This document shows positions 26,805 through 38,172 of a stretch of DNA of 64,000 bases, piece by piece. Made by a program: the position numbers and the translations under genes. How positions within the stretch are numbered: position 1 is the first letter of the stretch; every line of letters starts with the position of its first letter. Source of the stretch: Rathayibacter sp. Leaf185 (GTDB taxonomy: Bacteria; Actinomycetota; Actinomycetes; Actinomycetales; Microbacteriaceae); contig NZ_LMPP01000002.1 of NCBI RefSeq assembly GCF_001423885.1, forward strand, positions 62,001-126,000, given 5' to 3'. The notes beneath the pieces were generated by a model, which was not told the DNA's origin, ran no database searches, and was given only the letters and a program-made list of their open reading frames with translations.

Positions 26805-27638
26805 TCAGCGGATACCCGCCCGGCGCAGGTCGTCGGCCAGGCCCCAGGCGTGCTGTCGCACGATAGCCGCGACGCGGTCGAGCTCGGTGGCGCTGGCCTC
26901 TGCCAGAGGGATCGAGCAGCTGATCGCGTCCGTCGCGGGGATGCGGTAGGGGACCACGGCGCTGATGCACGACACTCCGAGGGTGTTCTCCTCGCGCTCG
27001 ATCGAGTATCCGCGAGCCCGGGTCTCCTCCAGCTGCTCCGCCAGGTGGACGGCATCGGTCACCGTATTGGCTGTCAGGGCGGGCAGTCGGCCGGGGGGCA
27101 GCACACCTGAGACCTCGTCCGGGCTGAGCTCGGCGAGCAGCGCCTTCCCAAGCGCGGTGGCATGGGCGGGTAGCTGGCGGCCGACGCGCGAGGTCAGGCG
27201 GTGCGATTCGCTCGCCTCGCGGGTGGCGAGGTAGATGACATTGGGACCCTGCAACCGCGCGTAGTGCGCGGTGTACCCCGATGCGTCCCGGATGAGCTCG
27301 AGGGTTCTCGACGCCCGCTGAACCGCTCCGTCGCGGTCGAGGTAGGAGGTGCCGACGACCAGCGCCCGGTATCCGATCTCGACACCCGAGCCGTCATCGG
27401 TGAACTGGATCCAGCCCGCGTCGGCCATGGTGTGCAGCAGCTGGTGCAGGCTCGACCGGGGGTAGCCCGTCTGACGGTGCAGGTCGGTGACGGAGATCGG
27501 CGCGCGGGCCTTCCCGAGGGTCTCGAGAATCGTCAGGGTGCGCTCGGCCGATTTCACCGTGCGCACCGGACCCGCACCGAGGTCGGCAGTGTCGGGGGCG
27601 ACCTTCAGTTCGCGTGGCCCCGCATCGACCTCGATCAT
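26805..27638 (-). CDS. IclR-family regulator of the aldarate locus
   Basis: A 277-residue IclR regulator. The winged helix lies at about residues 25-85 (AERTLTILETLGKARAPISV, then TGYPRSSLHQLLHTMADAGW), and the ligand domain contains LPAHATALGKALLAEL and NTLGVSCISAVVPYRI, which hold the family's effector-pocket cysteine and loops. The start at 27638 is five bases after the upstream uronate dehydrogenase stop; GTG codons at 27647/27650 are alternatives. It is co-transcribed with that gene and diverges from the transport/catabolic operon, whose promoter region has two palindromes. Its effector is probably a uronate- or aldarate-derived acid (inference). Confidence 0.9.
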   Translation of the reverse strand: MIEVDAGPRELKVAPDTADLGAGPVRTVKSAERTLTILETLGKARAPISVTDLHRQTGYPRSSLHQLLHTMADAGWIQFTDDGSGVEIGYRALVVGTSYLDRDGAVQRASRTLELIRDASGYTAHYARLQGPNVIYLATREASESHRLTSRVGRQLPAHATALGKALLAELSPDEVSGVLPPGRLPALTANTVTDAVHLAEQLEETRARGYSIEREENTLGVSCISAVVPYRIPATDAISCSIPLAEASATELDRVAAIVRQHAWGLADDLRRAGIR

Positions 27639-27643
27639 TCTCT

Positions 27644-28435
27644 TCACCACGCCTCCCCGAGCGCATTGTCGATGACCCCACCGCCGACCCGGACGGTCGA
27701 CGGGAGCGGGTCGGGGCTCCCCAGGGAGGCCGCCCACTGTTCAGCATCGTCCTGTGGACGATATCCGATCCGCTGTCCGGCTTCGCGGTTCAGCCACCCT
27801 CGGGTGTTGGCCGACGTGCCCCAGACGACGTGGCCACCCTGATGCGCGGTGGTTGCCGTCGCCTCGATCAGTCGGCAGAGGTCACCCGGCGACAGCCAGA
27901 CCGAGAGCGAACGGGGGTTGGAGGGCAGCGCTTCTGTGGTGCCGAAGCGCGCAGACACGACGGTCATGCCGAAGCGGTCGGCGTACAAGCGCCCGAGAGC
28001 CTCCATCGCCGCTTTACTGACGCCGTAGTAGGAGTCGGGGCACGGGGCGAGCTCGGCGGCCGACAGCGTCTCGGCCGCCGTGGCGTAACCGACGGCATGA
28101 ATCGAACTCGCCAGCAGGAGCTTCATGACGCCGGCCGATCGTGCCGCTTCGAGGACCGTCCGAGTTCCGTCGATGTTCGTCGAGAGGATGTCGGGCCACG
28201 GTCGCTCCTGAGCGAAGCCGCCCAGATGGACGACGACGTCGATGCCCTGGCAGGCCGTAGTCACGACGTGCTGATCGGTGATCGAGCCGTTGACGAACGT
28301 CTCGGAAGTGCGCAGCGCTTCGCGCGGCTCGACGAGGTCGAGGAGTGTGACCGACCATCCCGCATCGGCCAGGATCGGCCGGATGAGCGAAGCGACCACC
28401 CCCGAACCGCCGGTCATCAGCAGACGTCGCACCAT
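27644..28435 (-). CDS. Uronate dehydrogenase-like SDR
   Basis: A 263-residue extended SDR. TGGSGVVASLIRPIL is the NAD-binding motif, VHLGGFAQERPWPDILSTNI and LASSIHAVGYATAAETLSAA match uronate dehydrogenases closely, and the catalytic Y137 and K141 lie in DSYYGVSKAAMEALG. SVWLSPGDLCRLIEA is another conserved segment. The family oxidises D-galacturonate or D-glucuronate with NAD+ to the aldarolactone, the entry step of oxidative uronate catabolism. AAGGGAG precedes the ATG at 28435. It shares the locus with glucarate dehydratase, which supports this assignment strongly. Which uronate is preferred cannot be told. Confidence 0.85.
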   Translation of the reverse strand: MVRRLLMTGGSGVVASLIRPILADAGWSVTLLDLVEPREALRTSETFVNGSITDQHVVTTACQGIDVVVHLGGFAQERPWPDILSTNIDGTRTVLEAARSAGVMKLLLASSIHAVGYATAAETLSAAELAPCPDSYYGVSKAAMEALGRLYADRFGMTVVSARFGTTEALPSNPRSLSVWLSPGDLCRLIEATATTAHQGGHVVWGTSANTRGWLNREAGQRIGYRPQDDAEQWAASLGSPDPLPSTVRVGGGVIDNALGEAW

Positions 28436-28536: not shown

Positions 28537-29883
28537 ATGAAGAAGTTCTCTCTGGCCGGCAGGACTCTCGCCGTGGTCTCAGCGCTCGCGCTGGTGGGCT
28601 CGGTGAGCGCCTGCTCGACGGGCGGCGCCAGCTCGTCCAGCAGCGACGACGGTGAGCCTCTCGAGGTCTGGACCCGTTCCAGTGCCGATGCGGCCAAGAC
28701 CTACGAGAAGGTGTTCGCCGACTTCACCGAGAAGACCGGCATCGAGATCAACTACCAGGCCGTGGAGGAGTTCGACACCCAGCTCGCCGCGCGCGCCTCG
28801 GAGAAGGACCTTCCCGACGTCATGATCAATGACGCAGCATCCCTCGGCAACTACGCCTCGCAGGGGTTCCTCCTGCCGGTCGACCAGTCGAGCATCGAGG
28901 GCGAGGCCGACATCAGCCAGACAACCTGGGACCAGAACAAGGGACTCGACGGCACGATCTACGGCGTCCCGTTCTCCCGGCAGACGAACGTGCTGATGGT
29001 GCGCAAAGACTGGCGCGAGAAGCTCGGCCTCGCCCAGCCGAAGACCTGGGACGATCTCACGGCGATGGCCACGGCCTTCGCCACCCAGGATCCCGACGGC
29101 GACGGTCAGGCGGACACCTACGGAATGGTCGTTCCCGGAACCGCGAAGAGCGCCTACATCGCCCGCTGGGGCGTGCCGTACATCTGGCAGGCGGGCGGCG
29201 ACATCATCGAGAGCGACGGTGAGGGCACCTACAAGTCGGTCATCGATTCCCCCGAGACCGCCGAGGCGATGACGTTCATCCGCACGCAGTTCTGCACGCC
29301 GGGCAACGTCGTCCCGGGGTCGTTGAACCTCACCACCGGCGACTCACCCTTCTTCGCGGAGGGCACCGCGGGCATCTACCTGACCGGGCCCTACAACATC
29401 CCGAACTTCGACCGCGCCGTCGGGAAGGAGAACGTCGAGGTTGTGCCGATGCCCGCAGGGCCTGCCAGCACGACGACCTTCGCCGAGGGCGAGAACATCT
29501 ACTTCGGCGCGAGCTCGACGAAGGCGGAGCAGCAGAAGGCTCTGGCCGAGTACCTGATCTCTCCCGAGGCCCAAGAGCTCGCCATGGATGTCCAGCCCGC
29601 CGATTCGACGACGGTGAGCCAGCCGGTCGTGCGTCTCTCGGTGAACAAGAACGTCGACGTCGCCGACGTGCTCGGAGACGAGCGCTGGCAGGTCGTCGCG
29701 GACTCCTACGACGACGACGCCAAGACGTTCACCTGGTCGATCAACTACAACCCCATCCGCCAGGCCCTCGCCGACGGCATGAACGCCATGATGGCGGACT
29801 GCAACAGCGACATCCCGGCCGGCCTGGCATCGATCGACAGCACCATCACCACTGAACTGAAGAACCAGGATCTGCTGAAGTGA
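28537..29883 (+). CDS. Sugar ABC transporter substrate-binding lipoprotein
   Basis: A 448-residue extracytoplasmic solute-binding protein of the MalE/UgpB family (CUT1). The lipobox is SVSAC with acylated C26, followed by a serine-rich linker. The mature domain has LEVWTRSSADAAKTYEKVFA, ASEKDLPDVMINDAASLGNY and GTIYGVPFSRQTNVLMVRKD, typical of carbohydrate binding proteins. It opens the divergent operon, and its stop overlaps the first permease in GTGA. Cargo is probably a galactoside or uronic-acid-containing oligosaccharide, judged from the downstream catabolic genes; this is inference. Confidence 0.92.
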   Translation: MKKFSLAGRTLAVVSALALVGSVSACSTGGASSSSSDDGEPLEVWTRSSADAAKTYEKVFADFTEKTGIEINYQAVEEFDTQLAARASEKDLPDVMINDAASLGNYASQGFLLPVDQSSIEGEADISQTTWDQNKGLDGTIYGVPFSRQTNVLMVRKDWREKLGLAQPKTWDDLTAMATAFATQDPDGDGQADTYGMVVPGTAKSAYIARWGVPYIWQAGGDIIESDGEGTYKSVIDSPETAEAMTFIRTQFCTPGNVVPGSLNLTTGDSPFFAEGTAGIYLTGPYNIPNFDRAVGKENVEVVPMPAGPASTTTFAEGENIYFGASSTKAEQQKALAEYLISPEAQELAMDVQPADSTTVSQPVVRLSVNKNVDVADVLGDERWQVVADSYDDDAKTFTWSINYNPIRQALADGMNAMMADCNSDIPAGLASIDSTITTELKNQDLLK

Positions 29884-30863
29884 CCTCGAAGCCCACGGAA
29901 CGACCGATCACCTCGGGGGGTGTCGGCCTCGCCCCTTCACGGCCGATTCCCCCCACGGTCCGCAGCGCTGGCGCCGGCCGCACCAGGAGGCCCCGCTTCA
30001 CCCTGCGTTCGCTGATCCCGTGGATGTTCCTGCTGCCCGGCCTGGTCTTCGCGCTGGTGTTCAAGTTCATCCCGATGATCGAGGGCTTCCGCTTGAGCGC
30101 CTTCAAGGTGCAGCCCTTCCTCGGCGACGTCTTCGTGGGCTTCGAGAACTACAGCGCAGTGCTCACCGACCAGCGCTTCCTGGATTCGCTCGGGCACACG
30201 GTCGTGCTGGGAGTGGGACAGACCATCGGAGCCCTCCTCCTGGGCTTCCTCCTCGCGCTCCTGCTCGAGGGCCAGTCGCGGAGCCTGTTCCTGGTGCGCA
30301 CGGCGGTCTTCCTCCCCGTCGTCACCGCCCTCGCGGTGGTCGGCGAGATCTGGCGCATCCTGTACTTCCCCACCGAGACCGGGTTCATCAACTCGATCCT
30401 CGGCGTCTTCGGCCTGCCCGCCCAGGAGTTCCTGAGCGACCCGAATTCGGCTCTCTTCTACGTCATGGTCGTCGGGATCTGGACGGGCGCGCCCTACAAC
30501 ATGGTGATCATCCTCGCGGGGCTCGCCGGCATCGACCGCACGCTCTACGAAGCCGCGGCCGTCGACGGAGTCTCCGTGTGGCAGCGCATGCGCTACATCG
30601 TCCTGCCGGGACTGCGCTCAGCGGTCTCGGTCGTGCTGACCCTCGCGGCGATCCGGAGTCTCCGGACCTTCACCGAGGTGTACGTGCTGACCGGTGGTGG
30701 TCCCGCCGGCTCGACCGAGGTGTGGATGACCCGGGTCTACTCGCTCGGCTTCCAGAACAACAACCTCGGGGTGGCCTCGGCCGCGTCCGTGCTGCTGCTG
30801 GTCGCCACCCTGGTGCTCACCCTCGGGGTCCGCATCCTCTCCTCCAGAAAGGCCGCCGCATGA
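29880..30863 (+). CDS. Sugar ABC transporter permease, MalF type
   Basis: A 327-residue inner-membrane permease with six transmembrane helices. The cytoplasmic EAA loop, EAAAVDGVSVWQRMRYIVLP near residue 222, couples to the ATPase. The GTG start at 29880 overlaps the binding-protein stop codon, and the end overlaps the second permease in ATGA, so the three are translated together. Only two permeases and a binding protein are encoded here; the ATPase must be supplied from elsewhere, as is usual for MsmK/MsiK-dependent transporters in actinobacteria. Confidence 0.92.
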   Translation: MTSKPTERPITSGGVGLAPSRPIPPTVRSAGAGRTRRPRFTLRSLIPWMFLLPGLVFALVFKFIPMIEGFRLSAFKVQPFLGDVFVGFENYSAVLTDQRFLDSLGHTVVLGVGQTIGALLLGFLLALLLEGQSRSLFLVRTAVFLPVVTALAVVGEIWRILYFPTETGFINSILGVFGLPAQEFLSDPNSALFYVMVVGIWTGAPYNMVIILAGLAGIDRTLYEAAAVDGVSVWQRMRYIVLPGLRSAVSVVLTLAAIRSLRTFTEVYVLTGGGPAGSTEVWMTRVYSLGFQNNNLGVASAASVLLLVATLVLTLGVRILSSRKAAA

Positions 30864-31798
30864 TCCCCACTTCTCCGGCCGCACCCGACACGGCGGTCGC
30901 CGCTCTGCGGCCGGCGAAGGACAAGGCCACCCGCGCGAACACGCAGTTCGACACGGCGCTGGGCTGGCGGCCCGGGTTCGGTGTCGCCACCCTCGTGCGC
31001 ATCCTGATCTGCGCCGTGGTGCTCTTCGTCTTCGCCGCTCCCTTCATCACCATCATCTCGGGCGCCTTCGACGCCAGCACCGACTCGACGAGGGTCAGCC
31101 TCTTCCCCAACAATCCCTCGCTCCTGCCCGCCCAGGTCGCCGCCGACAAGGGCATCTGGGGGTACTTCGCCAACTCGCTGATCATCGTCGGCGGCGGGCT
31201 CCTGCTGCAGATCGCGATCTCGATCCTGACCGCCTATGCGCTGGCCAGGCACCGCTTCCGCGGACAGTCGATCGTCCTGCTGCTCTTCCTGCTGACGATG
31301 ATGCTGCCCGAAGAGGTCATCGCGATCCCGCTCTCGCAGGTCATCGGCAACATCCCCGTGCTCGGCATCAGTCTCCGCGGCACCGTGTTCGGCGTGATCC
31401 TGCCTGTCGCGGTCTGGGGGTTCTCGATCCTCATCATGACCGAGTTCATGAAGGACATCCCTCACGAGATCGAGGAGGCGGCCCGCCTCGACGGCGTCGG
31501 CGAGCTCCGGATGCTGTGGTCGATCATCCTGCCGCTGTGCAAGCCGGTGCTCGGCGTCGTGACGATCTTCGGATTCATGATGATCTGGGACCAGTACCTG
31601 CTGCCTCTGATCGCCGCGAACGATCCGAGCGACTACACCCTCACGGTGGCCCTGAGCGTGCTGCGCACCGACGCCCAGACAGGCCCGGGCGTGCTGCTCT
31701 TCGGCGCTCTGCTCGCTCTCATCCCCAGCCTCATCGTGTACCTGCTCATGCAGAAGTCGCTCATCCGCGGCATCACGTCCGGCGCAACGAAAGGCTGA
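30860..31798 (+). CDS. Sugar ABC transporter permease, MalG type
   Basis: A 312-residue permease with six transmembrane helices behind a 40-residue polar N terminus. The EAA motif is EIEEAARLDGVGELRMLWSI, followed by LPLCKPVLGVV. The N-terminal loop between helices 1 and 2 carries FDASTDSTRVSLFPNNPSLL, typical of the MalG-like subunit. It pairs with the MalF-type protein encoded just upstream. The stop is five bases before the glucarate dehydratase ATG, placing uptake and catabolism in one transcript. Confidence 0.92.
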   Translation: MIPTSPAAPDTAVAALRPAKDKATRANTQFDTALGWRPGFGVATLVRILICAVVLFVFAAPFITIISGAFDASTDSTRVSLFPNNPSLLPAQVAADKGIWGYFANSLIIVGGGLLLQIAISILTAYALARHRFRGQSIVLLLFLLTMMLPEEVIAIPLSQVIGNIPVLGISLRGTVFGVILPVAVWGFSILIMTEFMKDIPHEIEEAARLDGVGELRMLWSIILPLCKPVLGVVTIFGFMMIWDQYLLPLIAANDPSDYTLTVALSVLRTDAQTGPGVLLFGALLALIPSLIVYLLMQKSLIRGITSGATKG

Positions 31799-31803
31799 CG
31801 ACC

Positions 31804-33126
31804 ATGACGATCCTCACTCCCACCCCCTCGACCCCCGACGGGCAGCCGGTCGAGCTCGATTCCACCGGCAAGCCGGAGCACCGCATCACGGACCTCGTCA
31901 TCACGCCGATCGCCTTCCGCGACCCCGCGCTGCTGAACTCCATCGGCGTCCACGAACCACTCGCTCTCCGCACGATCGTCCAGCTGGTCGTCGCCGACGG
32001 CAGCGTCATCGGCCTCGGCGAGGGCTCGGGCGAGCGCGAGGTCCTCGACCGGCTCGAGGTCGTCAGGCCCGCCGTCCTCGGGCTCAGCGTCTTCGACCTC
32101 AACGGGATCGAAGCGGCGATCAACACGGCACTCGGCGGCGACGACGGCGGACTGACACGCATCCAGCGCCGCGTCGTCTACTCGATCATCGATGTCGCCT
32201 GCCACGACGCCCAGGGCAGGATCATCGGAGTTCCCGTCAGCGAACTGCTCGGCGGCGCCGTCCGCACGGAGGTTCCGTACAGCGCGTACCTCTTCTACAA
32301 GTGGGCCGGGCATCCGGCGGCCGACGGCAGCACGGCCGACGACGAATGGGGTGCGGCCCTCGACCCCGCAGGCATCGTGAAGCAGGCCCGGCAGCTGATC
32401 GACGAGTACGGATTCGGGTCGATCAAGCTCAAGGCCGGCGTCTTCCCGCCCGAGCAGGAGATCGCGGCCATCCGCGCACTCGCGCAGGCGTTCCCCGATC
32501 TGCCGCTGCGCATCGACCCGAACGGCGCCTGGACCGTCGAGACCTCGCTCATGGTCGCTGACGAGCTCCGGGACGTGCTGCAGTACCTCGAGGACCCGAC
32601 GCTCACCCTCGACGGCATGTCGGCCGTCGCGGAGTCGGCCGGAATCCCGCTCGCCACCAACATGTGCGTGGTCGCCTTCGAGCAGATCAAGGAGGCGCTC
32701 GAGAAGAACGCCGTGCAGATCATCCTGAGCGACCACCACTACTGGGGCGGTCTCCGGCACACCCGGGAGCTCGGCGCCATCTGCGACACGCTCGGCATCG
32801 GTCTGTCGATGCACTCGAACTCGCACCTCGGCATCTCGCTCGCCGCGATGACGCACGTCGCTGCGGCATCACCGACACTCACCTACGCGTGCGACACGCA
32901 CTACCCGTGGAACCACACCGACGAGATCGTGAAGCCCGGCGTCCTGGCGATACGGGACGGCTCGGTCGCCGTGCCCACCGGCCCGGGCCTCGGAGTGGAA
33001 CTCGACCTCGAGGCCCTCGAACGCCAGCACCGCGTCTACGTGGAGTCGGGCCGCACCACCCGGGAGGACACGGTCTACATGCGCTCCATCGACCCCGACT
33101 ACGACCCGACGCTGCCCCGATTCTGA
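31804..33126 (+). CDS. gudD: Glucarate dehydratase (enolase superfamily)
   Basis: A 440-residue enolase-superfamily enzyme that dehydrates D-glucarate or L-idarate to 5-keto-4-deoxy-D-glucarate. The KxK pair is K208/K210 (FGSIKLKAG). The metal ligands are D238 (RIDPNGAW), E263 (YLEDPT) and N286 (PLATNMC), and the second-half catalytic residues lie in SDHHYWGG (D310) and MHSNSHLG (H337, H341). YKWAGH near residue 164 is typical of glucarate dehydratases rather than mandelate racemases. Length matches the family. The stop overlaps the next start in TGATG. It follows the uronate dehydrogenase step logically. Confidence 0.93.
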   Translation: MTILTPTPSTPDGQPVELDSTGKPEHRITDLVITPIAFRDPALLNSIGVHEPLALRTIVQLVVADGSVIGLGEGSGEREVLDRLEVVRPAVLGLSVFDLNGIEAAINTALGGDDGGLTRIQRRVVYSIIDVACHDAQGRIIGVPVSELLGGAVRTEVPYSAYLFYKWAGHPAADGSTADDEWGAALDPAGIVKQARQLIDEYGFGSIKLKAGVFPPEQEIAAIRALAQAFPDLPLRIDPNGAWTVETSLMVADELRDVLQYLEDPTLTLDGMSAVAESAGIPLATNMCVVAFEQIKEALEKNAVQIILSDHHYWGGLRHTRELGAICDTLGIGLSMHSNSHLGISLAAMTHVAAASPTLTYACDTHYPWNHTDEIVKPGVLAIRDGSVAVPTGPGLGVELDLEALERQHRVYVESGRTTREDTVYMRSIDPDYDPTLPRF

Positions 33127-34394
33127 TGGGCTCGTTCCAGACCGGGTCCTCCTTCGATTCAACGGCCTACTTCTACCCGTGGGACGTCGTGGGCGACCCC
33201 GCTGCCGCTCGGCGCATCGCGCGGTCGGGTGTCTCGAGCGTCACCCTGGCCGCCGCGTACCACTCCGTTCGGGCGGCGACGCCACGTCATCCCGGGCATC
33301 GCGTCGTCGAGGCCCGCACCGCCGCGCTGTACGTCCCCGTGCGGGAGCGCGCGTGGGCGGGTCAGCGCCTCACACCCGGCGACGGTGCGGCATGGGCCGG
33401 ACACGACTCGTTCGCCAGGGCTCGCGATGCACTCGCCCAGGCGGGTCTCGCCAGCCAGGCCTGGCTCGCGCTGACGCACGCCGACGGAATCGCAGCGGGT
33501 GGTACGTCGTCACCGGTCGCGCCCGACCTGTGCACGACGAACGCGTTCGGCGACGTCTACATCTACTCTCTCTGCCCCTCGAGCGAAGAGGTCCGGCAGT
33601 ACGCCGCCACGCTGACCTCCGAGTGCGTCGCACTGGCGGGCGTCGACAGCGTGATCCTCGAGGCCGTGGGCCCGATGGGCTTCGGCCATCTGAGCGCGCA
33701 CGAGAAGACCGCGGGGGCCGACTACGGCCCTCTCGAAGAGGCACTCCTGTCGGTGTGCTTCTGCGCGGCATGCTGCTCGGCCTACGACGAACGGGGCGGG
33801 GCGGATGCTCTGCGGCAGTCGGTCCGCGAGGCGCTCTCCCGCGCACCCGACACCTCAGCGACGCTCGACGACGGCCTGCGGGGCGCTCTCGGCGACACGA
33901 CCGCCGACGTGCTGCTCGAGACCCGGCGGTCGGCCTCACTCGAGCTCCGGACAGCCGTGCTCGACGCGGCTCGATCAGCCGGCGCGTCGAGGGTGACCCT
34001 GCACTGCTCGAGCGAGGTCTGGGCGACGGGGCCGTTCGGCGCTCTTCTCGACGACGCGCGCGACCTGGACGGTGTCGTCGCCGCCGCCTGGGCGCAGGGG
34101 TCGGAGAGCGTCGCCGAGGTCTCACGACTCGCCGGAGCAGCGCATCCCTCGCTCGCCATCGGGGCGTACTGCACGGTCCTGCCCCCCACCCCGATCGATG
34201 TCCAGCAGACCGTCCGGCACTGGTCCGCCCTCCTCGAGGCCGGCGCCACCGAGCTGCACCTGTACCACGCCGGTCTGGCCTCGGATGCTCGGCTCGGCCT
34301 GCTCGAAGCGGCGCTCGACCAGGTCGAGGCTACCGACTCCACCCGGACCCCCACTGCGCCGTCACCCCTCTCGAAGGAGCCCTCCCATGACTGA
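33126..34394 (+). CDS. Uncharacterised protein of the aldarate operon with a Cys-rich motif
   Basis: A 422-residue protein without a signal peptide or transmembrane segment. I do not recognise a named family. Conserved-looking features are AYFYPWDVVGDPAAARRIAR near the start, VTLAAAYHSVRAATPRHPGH, YSLCPSSEEVRQYAA, VILEAVGPMGFGHL followed by HEKTAGADYGPLEE, and a cysteine cluster LSVCFCAACCSAYDE near residue 205. The CxCxxC pattern at this place in a predicted TIM-like alpha/beta protein is reminiscent of glycosidase-like barrels with FCxxC motifs, but that is inference. It overlaps its neighbours on both sides (1 base with the dehydratase, 8 with the aldolase), so it is tightly co-translated with aldarate catabolism and is probably an enzyme of that pathway or a related glycosidase. 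Confidence 0.85.
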   Translation: MGSFQTGSSFDSTAYFYPWDVVGDPAAARRIARSGVSSVTLAAAYHSVRAATPRHPGHRVVEARTAALYVPVRERAWAGQRLTPGDGAAWAGHDSFARARDALAQAGLASQAWLALTHADGIAAGGTSSPVAPDLCTTNAFGDVYIYSLCPSSEEVRQYAATLTSECVALAGVDSVILEAVGPMGFGHLSAHEKTAGADYGPLEEALLSVCFCAACCSAYDERGGADALRQSVREALSRAPDTSATLDDGLRGALGDTTADVLLETRRSASLELRTAVLDAARSAGASRVTLHCSSEVWATGPFGALLDDARDLDGVVAAAWAQGSESVAEVSRLAGAAHPSLAIGAYCTVLPPTPIDVQQTVRHWSALLEAGATELHLYHAGLASDARLGLLEAALDQVEATDSTRTPTAPSPLSKEPSHD

Positions 34395-35037
34395 GCTGAC
34401 CCGTCGACTCGGCGACCGACCGATCGTGGCCGTGCTGCGCGCCTCCGAGTCGACCGCCTTCATCCCCGTCTGCGATGTGCTGTTCGACGAGGGCTTCCCG
34501 GCTGTCGAGATCACGATGACGACGCCCGGAGCCCTGCAGGTCATCGCGGACATCCGCAGACGGATGCCCGCCGACGCGGTGGTCGGCGCCGGCACGGTTC
34601 GCACGCTCGCTCAGGTCGACGGCGCGATCGACGCCGGGGCGCAGTTCCTTGTCAGTCAGATCACCTCGCCCGAGCTCGTCGCCGCTGCGGCGGCGCGCGG
34701 AGTGCCCTTCATCCCCGGTGCCCTCACCCCGACGGAGATCGTCCATGCGTGGGAGCTCGGGGTCGAAGCGGTCAAGGTGTCGCCCATCGGGCCGGTCGGC
34801 GGCCTCGACTATCTCGCAGAGCTCATCGGGCCCCTCCCCGAGATCGCCCTGTTCCCCACCGGCGGCGTCCTGATCAGCCAGGCGGCGGACTACCTCGACA
34901 CCGGTGCTTCGATCATCGGCCTGAGCAGGGATCTCGTTCGCGACGCCTTCAACGACGGCAGCCTCGATGAGCTGCGCGAGCGCGCTCGCTTCGTGGTCGG
35001 CTCCGTCGCGGCGCGCCGGACCGCACAGCCGGCCTGA
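34387..35037 (+). CDS. KDPG/KHG aldolase family (Eda-like)
   Basis: A 216-residue class I aldolase with the Eda-type small (beta/alpha)8 barrel. The catalytic glutamate is E41 in VEITMTTPGAL, and the Schiff-base lysine is K130 in VEAVKVSPIGPVGGLDY. VGAGTVRTLAQVDGAIDAGA and PTGGV are phosphate/carboxylate-binding loops. The arginine of the E. coli EVTLRT motif is threonine here. Eda enzymes cleave 2-keto-3-deoxy acids to pyruvate and an aldehyde. Next to glucarate dehydratase and tartronate semialdehyde reductase it may cleave keto-deoxy-glucarate, a job normally done by the unrelated GarL; that is inference. The start overlaps the previous gene by 8 bases. Confidence 0.88.
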   Translation: MTELTRRLGDRPIVAVLRASESTAFIPVCDVLFDEGFPAVEITMTTPGALQVIADIRRRMPADAVVGAGTVRTLAQVDGAIDAGAQFLVSQITSPELVAAAAARGVPFIPGALTPTEIVHAWELGVEAVKVSPIGPVGGLDYLAELIGPLPEIALFPTGGVLISQAADYLDTGASIIGLSRDLVRDAFNDGSLDELRERARFVVGSVAARRTAQPA

Positions 35038-35083: not shown

Positions 35084-35977
35084 ATGCAGAAGATCGCCTT
35101 CATCGGACTCGGGATCATGGGACTGCCCATGGCGAAGAACCTCGTCGACGCCCGCTTCCACGTCACCGGCTTCAACCGCTCCAGCGCCAACCTCGACGCT
35201 CTCGTCGAGCACGGCGGGCGGCGAGCCGGCAGCGTCGCCGAGGCCGTGGACGGTGCCGACGTCGTCATCACCATGCTGCCCGATTCCCCCGACGTCGAGG
35301 AGGTGGTACTCGGAGAGGGCGGAGTGCTGGACTCGGCGAAGAGCGGCGCCCTGCTCATCGACGCGAGCTCGATCGCCCCCGCGACGGCCCGCCGAGTAGC
35401 GGACGCGGCCGCAGCCGTCGGAGTGCGGGCGCTGGACGCCCCGGTCAGCGGAGGCGAGCAGGGCGCCATCGACGGCGCGCTCTCGATCATGGTCGGCGGT
35501 GCGGCCGAGGACTTCGAGGCCGCGCGCGACGTCTTCGCCGCGATGGGGAGCACGATCGTGCACGTCGGCCCCAGCGGGTCGGGCCAGACAGTCAAAGCCG
35601 CGAACCAGCTCATCGTCGCCGGCACGATCCAGCTGGTCGCCGAGGCCCTCACCTTCCTCGACGCCCACGACGCCGACCTCGAGGCCGCCGTGAGCGTGCT
35701 CGCCGGAGGCCTCGCCGGAAACCGCATCCTCGATCGCAAGGCGGCCGGGATGATCGCGCACTCCTTCGCGCCGGGGTTCCGCATCGAACTGCACCACAAG
35801 GACCTCGGCATCGTGCTCGCCGCCGCCCGGGAAGCAGGAGTGGTCGTCCCCGTCGGAGCGCTGCTCGGTCAGCTCATGGCGTCGATGGTCGCGAACGGCG
35901 ACGGCGGGCTCGACCACTCCGCCCTGCTCCTCGGAGTGGAGCGCCTCTCGGGCCGGGGGAGCGTGGGGGGCGCATGA
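35084..35977 (+). CDS. garR: 2-hydroxy-3-oxopropionate (tartronate semialdehyde) reductase
   Basis: A 297-residue beta-hydroxyacid dehydrogenase. IAFIGLGIMGLPMAKNL is the NAD(P)-binding GxGxxG with the family's MG, DAPVSGGEQGAIDGALSIMV is the substrate-binding motif, and K171 in GQTVKAANQLI is the catalytic lysine at its standard position. In aldarate pathways this enzyme reduces tartronate semialdehyde to D-glycerate. It directly follows the aldolase, which supports this role over 3-hydroxyisobutyrate dehydrogenase. The end overlaps the start of the GH36 gene (ATGATGA), so the two are coupled. Confidence 0.9.
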   Translation: MQKIAFIGLGIMGLPMAKNLVDARFHVTGFNRSSANLDALVEHGGRRAGSVAEAVDGADVVITMLPDSPDVEEVVLGEGGVLDSAKSGALLIDASSIAPATARRVADAAAAVGVRALDAPVSGGEQGAIDGALSIMVGGAAEDFEAARDVFAAMGSTIVHVGPSGSGQTVKAANQLIVAGTIQLVAEALTFLDAHDADLEAAVSVLAGGLAGNRILDRKAAGMIAHSFAPGFRIELHHKDLGIVLAAAREAGVVVPVGALLGQLMASMVANGDGGLDHSALLLGVERLSGRGSVGGA

Positions 35978-38172
35978 TGCGTGCAGCGGAGCCACAAAGG
36001 AGCGCGAAAACCGTCCGAGCCACTCAGGAGCCGTCCTCCGTGGCGGATGTCGTCACACCCACCGAGGAGATCTTCGTCTGGCGAGCCGGGGCCCTGACGG
36101 TGTCCTTCGGCTCGGGGGAGCACCCGGTCCGGATCGTGGGCGTGAACGCCGGACCGGAGCAGGTGGTCACCGAAGCGACGCAGCCACTCGTCGAGGCCAT
36201 CGTCACCGGCGACGGCCGCGCTCGGAACACGACTCGGTTCACGCATACCGGCGTAGGAGCGCGCCTTCGTCTCGTCGACGTCCGAGAATCGACGATCGAC
36301 GGCGTCGCGCACCTCGAGATCGATCAGCGCGATGCTCGGACGGGTCTCGTCGTGACGGTGGCCTTCACGGCGTCTCCCGACATCGCGGGTGCCCGTGTCA
36401 GGACCTCGGTCCGCAACGAGGGTCCGACGCCGGTCGTACTGGAGGCGCTGTCCACGGTTGCGATCGGTGCGCTGGTCAGTCACGGAGACGATCCGCACGA
36501 CGCGCTGCTGCACTCGGGATCGGGTGAGCAGCTCGCTGAGAACCGGTGGGTGGTGACGAAAGCCTGGTCGCAGGCAGGGCTCGGCGATTTCCACTCCGGG
36601 ACCAACCATCAGCCCGGACGCGGATACACCGCAGCGACAGGGACCTCGACCTGGACGACGGCTCGCGCGCTGCCCACGGGGGTACTCGAGCACCCCCGAT
36701 CCGGTCGCGCGATCGCCTGGCAGATCGAGCACAACGGCGGCTGGCGCTGGGAGATCGACAACCAGCGCGAAGGCGAGGACGCGCTGGCTCTCGTCCTGCT
36801 CGGTCCGACGGACCTCCATCATCACTGGGCCGAGGAACTCGTCCCCGGAGCGAGCTTCGAGTCCGTCCCCGCATCGTTCACAGTCGGCAGCGCCGGCGCA
36901 GCGAGCGCAGTCGCCGAGCTGACACGGCACCGTCGCTGGCTCCGACGAGCGCAGCGAGCGGACAGTTCCTCGCTCCTCGTCTTCAACGACTTCATGAACA
37001 CGATCCTCGGCGATCCGACGACCGAGCGGCTGCTCCCCCTCATCGCGGCTGCCGCCGCGGTCGGGGCGGAGTGCTTCTGCATCGACGCCGGCTGGTACGA
37101 CGACAGCGAGGAGGGGGACTGGTGGCCGAGCGTCGGCGAATGGCTCCCGTCGACACGACGGTTCCCCGGTGGCGGACTGGCTCGAGTCACTGACGAGATC
37201 CGTTCCCACGGAATGAAGGTGGGCATCTGGGTCGAGCCCGAGGTCATCGGCGTCCGCAGCCCCCTCGCCGACGCACTCCCGGCCGAGGCTTTCCTCCAGC
37301 GACACGGGATCCGGGTCCGCGAACACGACCGCTACTTCCTCGATCTGCGCAACGAGGCCGCCCGAGAGCACCTCGATCGGACCTTCGATCGACTCATCGC
37401 CGACTTCGGCGTGCGCTTCTTCAAACTCGACTACAACGTCACTCCCGGCGCGGGGACGGACCTCGACGCCTTCTCGGCCGGGGCGGGGCTCCTCGCGCAC
37501 AACCGCGCGCACCTGAGCTGGTTCGCCGCGCTCCGAGCTCGGCATCCGGACGTGGTGTTCGAGAACTGCAGCTCGGGCGCCATGCGCTCCGACTTCGGGA
37601 TGATGGAGGTCTTCGACCTGCAGTCGACGTCGGACCAGCAGGACTTCCGGCTGTACCCGCCCATTGCCGCCGCCGCACCGATGCAAATGCTCCCGGAGCA
37701 GGCGGCCAGCTGGGCGTACCCGCAGCCGTGGATGAGCCAGGACGAGATCGCGTTCACCATGGTGACGGGCTTGTCCGGCCGTCTCTACCTGTCCGGTTTC
37801 CTGAACCGGATGAACGAGGAGCAGTTCGCCCTCGTCGAAGAGGCGGTCCGAGTGTTCACCGCAGTGCGTTCCGACATCGCGGACGCCGTTCCCGAGTGGC
37901 CGAGCGGCTACCCGGACTGGGAGGCACCCGCACTCTCGCTGCGGCTCCGATGCTCCGGCCGGTCGCTGCTCTACGTGTGGCATCGGAGCGAATCGACCAC
38001 CGAGACCCTCGAGCTCGACCTCGGCGCGAACAAGACGCCGACCTCGCTCCGGCAGATCTATCCGGTGTCCGCGACGGCCTGGACGATCTCCGGAAACGGG
38101 AACGGCCGGATCGCTCTCACCCCGCCTACCCCCGGTGTTTCCGCACGGATCTATGAACTCACCATCGACTGA
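35974..38172 (+). CDS. Alpha-galactosidase, glycoside hydrolase family 36
   Basis: A 732-residue retaining alpha-galactosidase. An N-terminal beta-supersandwich of about 320 residues precedes the catalytic barrel. The nucleophile is D486 in FFKLDYN, and the acid/base is D554 in STSDQQDF. FCIDAGWYDDSEEGDWWPSV, MKVGIWVEPEVI and FENCSSGAMRSDFGM are GH36 hallmarks. No signal peptide is seen, so it is cytoplasmic and acts on imported alpha-galactosides. Alternative starts at 35974 and 35977 both overlap the reductase stop. Its place in an aldarate operon suggests that the imported compound is an alpha-galactosyl conjugate of a uronic acid or that the operon handles mixed pectin fragments; this is inference. 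Confidence 0.92.
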   Translation: MMRAAEPQRSAKTVRATQEPSSVADVVTPTEEIFVWRAGALTVSFGSGEHPVRIVGVNAGPEQVVTEATQPLVEAIVTGDGRARNTTRFTHTGVGARLRLVDVRESTIDGVAHLEIDQRDARTGLVVTVAFTASPDIAGARVRTSVRNEGPTPVVLEALSTVAIGALVSHGDDPHDALLHSGSGEQLAENRWVVTKAWSQAGLGDFHSGTNHQPGRGYTAATGTSTWTTARALPTGVLEHPRSGRAIAWQIEHNGGWRWEIDNQREGEDALALVLLGPTDLHHHWAEELVPGASFESVPASFTVGSAGAASAVAELTRHRRWLRRAQRADSSSLLVFNDFMNTILGDPTTERLLPLIAAAAAVGAECFCIDAGWYDDSEEGDWWPSVGEWLPSTRRFPGGGLARVTDEIRSHGMKVGIWVEPEVIGVRSPLADALPAEAFLQRHGIRVREHDRYFLDLRNEAAREHLDRTFDRLIADFGVRFFKLDYNVTPGAGTDLDAFSAGAGLLAHNRAHLSWFAALRARHPDVVFENCSSGAMRSDFGMMEVFDLQSTSDQQDFRLYPPIAAAAPMQMLPEQAASWAYPQPWMSQDEIAFTMVTGLSGRLYLSGFLNRMNEEQFALVEEAVRVFTAVRSDIADAVPEWPSGYPDWEAPALSLRLRCSGRSLLYVWHRSESTTETLELDLGANKTPTSLRQIYPVSATAWTISGNGNGRIALTPPTPGVSARIYELTID

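Follow-up and report, generated by a model that had tools for sequence, protein, structure and literature searches.

Plant-derived uronic acids reach central metabolism through the oxidative uronate pathway, whose enzymes also find use in the production of aldaric acids. Among the proteins that serve its lactone step, UxuL is of the SMP-30 type and Gci is an enolase-superfamily protein. One review describes UxuL and UxuF of proteobacteria as aldaro-1,5-lactonases and has Gli and Gci of Agrobacterium, a galactarolactone isomerase and cycloisomerase, also serving the lactone step; a reference title there names Gli as an amidohydrolase-superfamily protein (PMC6353982). In the actinobacterial clusters studied here, no gene was found assigned to this step. 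We describe a candidate, a 422-residue protein (P422) encoded in a 64,000-nucleotide stretch of Rathayibacter sp. Leaf185 (contig NZ_LMPP01000002.1; hereafter the window). We give a probability of roughly 45% to the reading that P422 is a cytosolic enzyme that opens, or isomerises, the aldarolactone on a glycosidase scaffold. Its family would thereby provide a testable candidate for the lactone step at some 300 genome places.

33126..34394, + strand: P422 (422 aa); probable glycosidase-like barrel of an unnamed family, with a predicted Cys4 metal site (C150, C211, C213, C216)

P422 resembles UxuL and UxuF in its proposed role, the opening of galactaro- or glucaro-1,5-lactone beside uronate dehydrogenase (Udh), and resembles Gli and Gci in that it would act on the Udh product, as far as the accessible text sets out these roles (PMC6353982). 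By family, however, it is unlike UxuL, Gli and Gci. A Pfam scan of P422 with E up to 1 finds neither PF08450 (the SMP-30/SGL lactonases, UxuL type) nor PF04909 (amidohydrolase-type lactonases and isomerases, Gli type), and both are absent among the 16 Pfam families matched by any of 68 aligned members; nor does it match the Pfam family of Gci or the profile of the enolase-superfamily glucarate dehydratase (GlucD). The profile search proposed in an earlier note on this DNA leaves P422 where that note had put it, outside any named family, with no family found in Pfam or NCBIfam at E up to 1 or in PHROGs at E up to 0.01. A sequence search of the PDB gave matches at chance level only, and those to nucleoside diphosphate kinase, Cas2, beta-lactamase and debranching enzyme (E 0.09-0.4) were dismissed as such. 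The literature consulted, chiefly openly accessible, contained nothing recognisable as describing the family, so that within the searches made the family is neither already characterised nor, as described below, randomly placed.

P422 is a real gene and not a chance open frame. Translation of 33126-34394 on the plus strand gives 422 residues with a single terminal stop, and the overlaps with both neighbours are real, one base at the GlucD stop (33126) and eight bases at the aldolase ATG (34387). The copy in a congener, 94% identical, has a nonsynonymous rate (dN) of 0.031 and a synonymous rate (dS) of 0.135, and the dN/dS of 0.23 therefore indicates a selected coding gene under purifying selection. 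The segments singled out by the earlier note are present, with YFYPWD, YSLCP and LEAVGPMGFGH on or around conserved columns, and no export signal is visible on inspection by eye. Three cysteines of the CFCAACC cluster pointed out in that note (C211, C213, C216) are the same in every one of the 68 aligned sequences; the last, C217, varies. At one Rathayibacter contig, seen twice (L005 and L048), the P422 frame stops early (297 aa) and similarity resumes in another frame; the gene there looks interrupted.

A scan of a genome collection found relatives at 307 places, of which the best 80 were studied; neighbour counts out of 80 refer to these loci. By record title, 77 are actinobacterial and three are from Rhodanobacter, and among 60 near genomes the gene occurs in six, its own included. 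The principal alignment (A3) has 68 rows, P422 and 67 of the best 80 relatives, with the truncated L048 and twelve close Streptomyces copies (L064, L066, L068, L069, L071, L073, L074, L075, L078, L080, L082, L084) left out.

The conserved context of these loci is that of uronate breakdown, with neighbour identities taken from NCBIfam scans of representative loci. Profile matches in the flanks were found for Udh at 70 loci, KdgD at 61, GlucD at 44, permease 2 of the window's importer at 36, aldehyde dehydrogenase (ALDH) at 30, an IlvD-type dehydratase at 20, tartronate semialdehyde reductase (GarR) at 4 and the window-type aldolase at 1; SGL and the window's GH36-like gene were matched at none. 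Udh or GlucD is matched at 79/80, the exception being L052, and the GlucD match at L013 is only 32% identical to window GlucD. The link to sugar-acid genes that the earlier note had suspected thus stands, but the tightest partner is Udh (70/80) and not the gudD and garR genes that the note named; GarR (4/80) and the aldolase (1/80) were rejected as key partners on these counts. All ten genomes whose P422 locus shows no Udh in its flanks carry a Udh-type gene elsewhere (whole-genome search, E 2.3e-85 or better), those of L013 and L052 being the weakest, with scores near those of orphan Udh-type genes. Directly upstream of P422 on the same strand stands GlucD at 31 loci and KdgD at 28. Most relatives have KdgD in their flanks where the window has the aldolase and GarR, an arrangement that it shares with L040 (Microbacterium).

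The dehydratase genes vary around P422. Replacement of glucarate dehydratase by P422 itself was considered and rejected, since P422 and GlucD coexist in the flanks at 44/80 loci. The IlvD-type dehydratase never occurs with GlucD in the same flanks. Genes of this IlvD/EDD type (L-arabinonate dehydratase family) are seen in the GlucD-less flanks of L041, L052 and 18 of the loci L056-L086, where they possibly replace GlucD. A genome check covering 17 of the loci L056-L086, five of L007-L055 and the window's own genome found GlucD elsewhere (>=53% identity) in 14 of 16 Streptomycetaceae genomes, with no close copy in G096 and G105. Of the genomes of six other loci without flanking GlucD, two encode it at another place (57-60% identity) and the remaining four lack it (G081 reaching only 37%; G106, G107 and G108, which are metagenome-assembled genome records, having none).

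Co-occurrence across genomes also follows Udh. Strong P422 matches (E 3.4e-140 or better) were found in nine of 396 sampled actinobacterial genomes, and Udh lies within 5 kb in 9/9, although Udh-type genes are found in only 19 of the sampled genomes at 1e-40 or better and in 18 at 1e-80 or better. The chance of this outcome is 8e-14 if genomes are independent, a figure that makes too strong a case, since eight of the nine belong to one genus. Six further genomes hold only distant cousins of P422 (E 1e-48 to 1e-56). UxaC, of the isomerase route, is above cut-off in 24/396 genomes and overlaps strong P422 in one of nine, the window's own, where it lies on a different contig. Whole-genome checks for UxaC and for SGL were made in 46 of the 80 loci's genomes and the window's own (n=47), and UxaC was found in 16/47.

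SGL-type lactonase genes are missing beside P422. An SGL profile made from ten of the 13 SGL proteins fetched recovers all 13 in a control, the three held out included, yet matches 0/97 flanking regions at E 1e-3, and six of the 47 P422 genomes show no SGL anywhere. To see whether SGL stands in where P422 is absent, ten Udh-type loci with no P422 nearby were compared (L090-L099, of which nine come from genomes lacking strong P422 and the tenth is a second Udh copy in a P422 genome; the weak G331 hit was left out); they show no GlucD, KdgD or SGL nearby and therefore do not resemble uronate operons. At L091, ALDH and an IclR relative lie near Udh.

Taken together, these associations place P422 very probably in the oxidative hexuronate pathway, at or beside the Udh step. 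It tracks Udh and not the UxaC route, and it persists while the dehydratase and downstream route vary, which argues for action between the imported uronoside and the aldarate. It is likewise kept with KdgD or with the aldolase and GarR, with or without GlucD, placing it upstream of those enzymes. Once Udh and the dehydratase are assigned, the steps left for P422 are uronate release, isomer preparation and lactone opening. A lactonase and a glycoside-releasing enzyme, the two ideas raised in the earlier note, are the leading hypotheses.

The probable fold, suggested by profile comparison, is the glycosidase-like TIM barrel that the earlier note had proposed. In Pfam searches at E up to 1, GHL10 was matched by 11 of the 68 members (best E 0.0036), GHL6 by seven (best E 0.00025) and DUF4838 by four (best 0.21), mostly between the LTH and LEA segments in members viewed singly. 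None of the 68 reaches the curated GHL6 (PF14871) cut-off of 35 bits, the best scoring 21.7 bits at E 0.00025. Six GHL6 proteins over this cut-off served for comparison. With hhalign, the P422 family aligns to the three that carry CxCxxC (profile A5; from P422 genomes) at a probability of 93.7 and E 1.8e-7, in an alignment that spans some 109 columns and has CxCxxC at its end. The three without CxCxxC give 55.8 (E 1.1e-4) over the strands up to the LEA segment. GlucD and KdgD, which are barrel enzymes too but belong to different families, were used as controls and reach probabilities below 1.

Comparison with GH42 helps to place the cysteines. The GHL6 segment with Cys and CxCxxC aligns weakly (domain i-Evalue 0.28) with the GH42 beta-galactosidase 5DFA/4OIF. 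For Gal42 of GH42, the accessible part of one report gives a modelled zinc site at Cys113/153/155/158, a rise in stability with zinc, and a cluster that is not universal in GH42 (PMC8573354). P422 and the GHL6/GH42-type barrels have in common a Cys-Pro segment followed by CxCxxC; the upstream Cys lies 61 residues from CxCxxC in P422 as opposed to 40 in those barrels, and P422 has no match to the GH42 trimerisation domain. C150, C211, C213 and C216 are invariant in 68/68, and they plausibly form a structural zinc site, the alignment to the GH42 site running only via GHL6 and with the different spacing.

Eighteen positions are invariant in all 68 sequences: W19, D20, Y45, H46, R49, H55, W113, H118, C150, E179, H188, H192, K194, C211, C213, C216, R267 and H381. 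E179 is the sole carboxylate invariant across all three alignments (A3, A9, A10) and the sole Glu present in >=80% of the 68 sequences. Among acids, D20 (68), D24 (67) and D94 (56/68) also reach this level, and the C-terminal half has none that does. D94 is invariant in the 11-sequence alignment and variable in the closer set, while D20 is invariant in the other two and lost in two haloarchaeal cousins. GH42 enzymes, by the accessible text on them, have two catalytic Glu where P422 has the one invariant carboxylate E179 (PMC8573354). Of the GH42 pair, an acid/base in NEY and a nucleophile in a later ME, the second Glu was not found in P422.

The distant cousins extend this pattern. Actinobacteria of other families, plasmids of Rhizobium and Aureimonas, and haloarchaea carry them at 24-28% identity, and hhalign of the P422 family against five of them gives a probability of 100 (E 1.2e-48), so that by profile the two would be one superfamily. 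P422 and the cousins have in common Y45, H46, W113, H118, C150, E179, H188, H192, C211, C213 and C216. H55, K194 and H381, in contrast, are invariant in the Udh-linked clade and variable in cousins.

From these elements a mechanism may be outlined, in which we infer fold, zinc, residue roles and reaction alike. Udh would make the aldaro-lactone from glucuronate or galacturonate, and P422 would open or isomerise it to glucarate or galactarate for the dehydratase encoded alongside. P422 would be built as a GHL6/GH42-type TIM barrel held by the structural Cys4 zinc site, and the lactone would be bound in the manner of an oxidised glycosyl ring. Water would be activated to attack C1 by E179, placed where presumed strand 4 ends, while a basic pocket of R49, H55, K194 and R267 with H46, H118, H188, H192 and H381 would hold the carboxylate. 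Lactone opening explains the association with Udh, the lack of coupling to UxaC, the absence of a nearby SGL gene and the small number of conserved carboxylates. Going by the SGL result in the flanks, the lactone step is without another evident gene in the clusters. A lactonase is also favoured at L037 (Rhodanobacter), where P422 is followed by a major facilitator superfamily carrier of the galactonate-transporter type (a profile match below cut-off), that is, a monomer-type carrier.

Several observations weigh against an aldarolactonase. The importer class found in the window more often takes oligosaccharides, and its permease 2 recurs at 36/80 loci, favouring a uronosidase, as do the nearest recognisable folds, which would be glycosidases. 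The Udh lactone is said, in the accessible text of one paper, to hydrolyse spontaneously (PMC5114784), and a dedicated enzyme may for that reason not be needed. An SGL protein is encoded somewhere in 41/47 P422 genomes, and the negative result for lactonases in the flanks covers SGL only, amidohydrolase-type lactonases not having been searched for there. Strong P422 is absent from ten of the 19 sampled genomes that have a Udh-type gene, and the co-occurrence in the sample does not amount to nine independent events, eight of the genomes being of one genus. The presence of GlucD elsewhere in most Streptomycetaceae genomes checked means that the IlvD-type gene need not be a replacement dehydratase. 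Because all of the 68 closest sequences keep D20 and most keep D94, a two-carboxylate mechanism is possible. The distant cousins' clusters, finally, are without detected or annotated Udh.

The main rival reading, less probable than lactone opening, is that P422 is an intracellular uronoside hydrolase of a new glycosidase family, freeing hexuronate from imported acidic disaccharides for Udh. It is consistent with the sub-threshold matches of relatives to GHL6 and GHL10, with the contrast between the GHL6 likeness (93.7 with CxCxxC, 55.8 without) and the values below 1 for GlucD and KdgD, with the sugar-type solute-binding protein in the window and the recurrent permease 2, with cousins adjoining NagA, an SIS protein and a ROK kinase as well as NagZ and NamZ, and with GH35 and GH88-family genes within ~6 kb of P422 at L029 (Rhodanobacter). 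A hydrolase of this kind would, however, be expected to serve both routes, yet P422 goes with Udh and not with UxaC; E179 alone is invariant as a carboxylate in all three alignments, and the carrier after P422 at L037 is of the monomer type. At L047 and L057, Udh and P422 overlap by four bases with no GlucD, KdgD or ALDH profile match in the flanks, which also speaks against a uronosidase, though importer-like genes adjoin. Uronoside hydrolysis would thus account for the importer as well as the fold, while leaving the preference for Udh unexplained.

It is improbable that P422 instead prepares the Udh substrate by mutarotation or epimerisation of hexuronates, for example at C4 or C5, widening the range of uronic acids used. 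Such an activity would account for the one-way association with Udh and would suit the basic, histidine-rich set of invariant residues, but inspection of the conserved columns by eye shows no evident cofactor-binding motif, and the Pfam and NCBIfam scans matched P422 to no known epimerase family. Least probable is that P422 has a non-catalytic or regulatory role in the uronate regulon, as a sensor of sugar acids or a scaffold with a degenerate glycosidase fold. Invariant carboxylates are indeed few, but the 18 polar, Cys or aromatic positions invariant in 68/68 are what an active site together with a metal site typically shows, and E179 is invariant even at 24-28% identity.

The window surrounds P422 with the following genes.

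26805..27638, - strand: IclR-family regulator (Pfam/NCBIfam scans; start uncertain, open frame to 27737)
27644..28435, - strand: Udh-type short-chain dehydrogenase/reductase (SDR) (PDB 3RFT uronate dehydrogenase, 2.8e-43; start uncertain, open frame to 28495)
28537..29883, + strand: extracellular solute-binding protein of a sugar-type ATP-binding cassette (ABC) importer (PF01547; start uncertain, open frame from 28519)
29880..30863, + strand: ABC importer permease 1 (open frame; named by eye and context)
30860..31798, + strand: ABC importer permease 2 (named by eye and context; the profile counted in the flanks above)
31804..33126, + strand: GlucD, glucarate dehydratase-like enolase-superfamily protein (TIGR03247, 229.6 bits against an equivalog cut-off of 828.7; scanned from 32008)
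34387..35037, + strand: KDPG/KHG-type aldolase (TIGR01182 above cut-off)
35084..35977, + strand: GarR, tartronate semialdehyde reductase (TIGR01505 above cut-off)

The plus-strand order is solute-binding protein, two permeases, GlucD, P422, aldolase, GarR, a GH36-like gene and a BadF-type kinase, with the GlucD start at 31804 sitting inside a longer open frame. Comparison of the solute-binding protein with the PDB gave no ligand hint at E 1e-20. The Streptomyces-type Udh at L076 matches solved uronate dehydrogenases (3AY3, E 6e-74; 3RFT, E 6.8e-63) better than the window SDR does, and the enzyme properties of a Streptomyces Udh have been described (PMC4476818). The GH36/melibiase-like gene (35974-38172) overlaps the end of GarR, and its best NCBIfam match is beta-L-arabinopyranosidase at 619.5 bits (cut-off 1100); as a partner of the P422 family it was rejected, its profile matching 0/80 loci.

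The neighbours of the distant cousins belong to amino-sugar, muramic-acid or other sugar-acid clusters. They include NagA, a glucosamine-6-phosphate-deaminase-like SIS protein and a ROK kinase, or else creatininase with a metallo-beta-lactamase. A plasmid search for cousins returned 144 records, of which Rhizobium accounts for 112 and haloarchaea for at least 22; where annotated among the records listed, the cousin is a hypothetical protein. Plasmid contexts comprise IolD with Gfo/Idh, a D-serine-dehydratase-like protein with Amidohydro_2, and MR/MLE with SDR. DUF4015, described as a putative glycosyl hydrolase domain, is matched by one of the haloarchaeal cousins (E 0.0007). We tentatively propose, from profiles and gene neighbourhoods, that a GH barrel with a Cys4 zinc site may have turned aldarolactonase and may stand in for SMP-30 and amidohydrolase lactonases in actinobacterial uronate breakdown, P422 being the best-placed branch of an unrecognised acidic-sugar superfamily of bacteria and haloarchaea whose other branches may act on amino-sugar or muramic-acid substrates. 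The superfamily, with one fully invariant Glu and a Cys4 pattern, exceeds no Pfam or NCBIfam cut-off in the members scanned. Creatininase-family genes are adjacent to cousins at L102, L104 (named by eye) and L163 and lie ~3 kb away at L164. At L164, on a Haladaptatus plasmid (4321-12799), the cousin sits amid NamZ, NagZ, AnmK and creatininase genes, a cluster that looks like one for peptidoglycan-sugar use or recycling in an archaeon.

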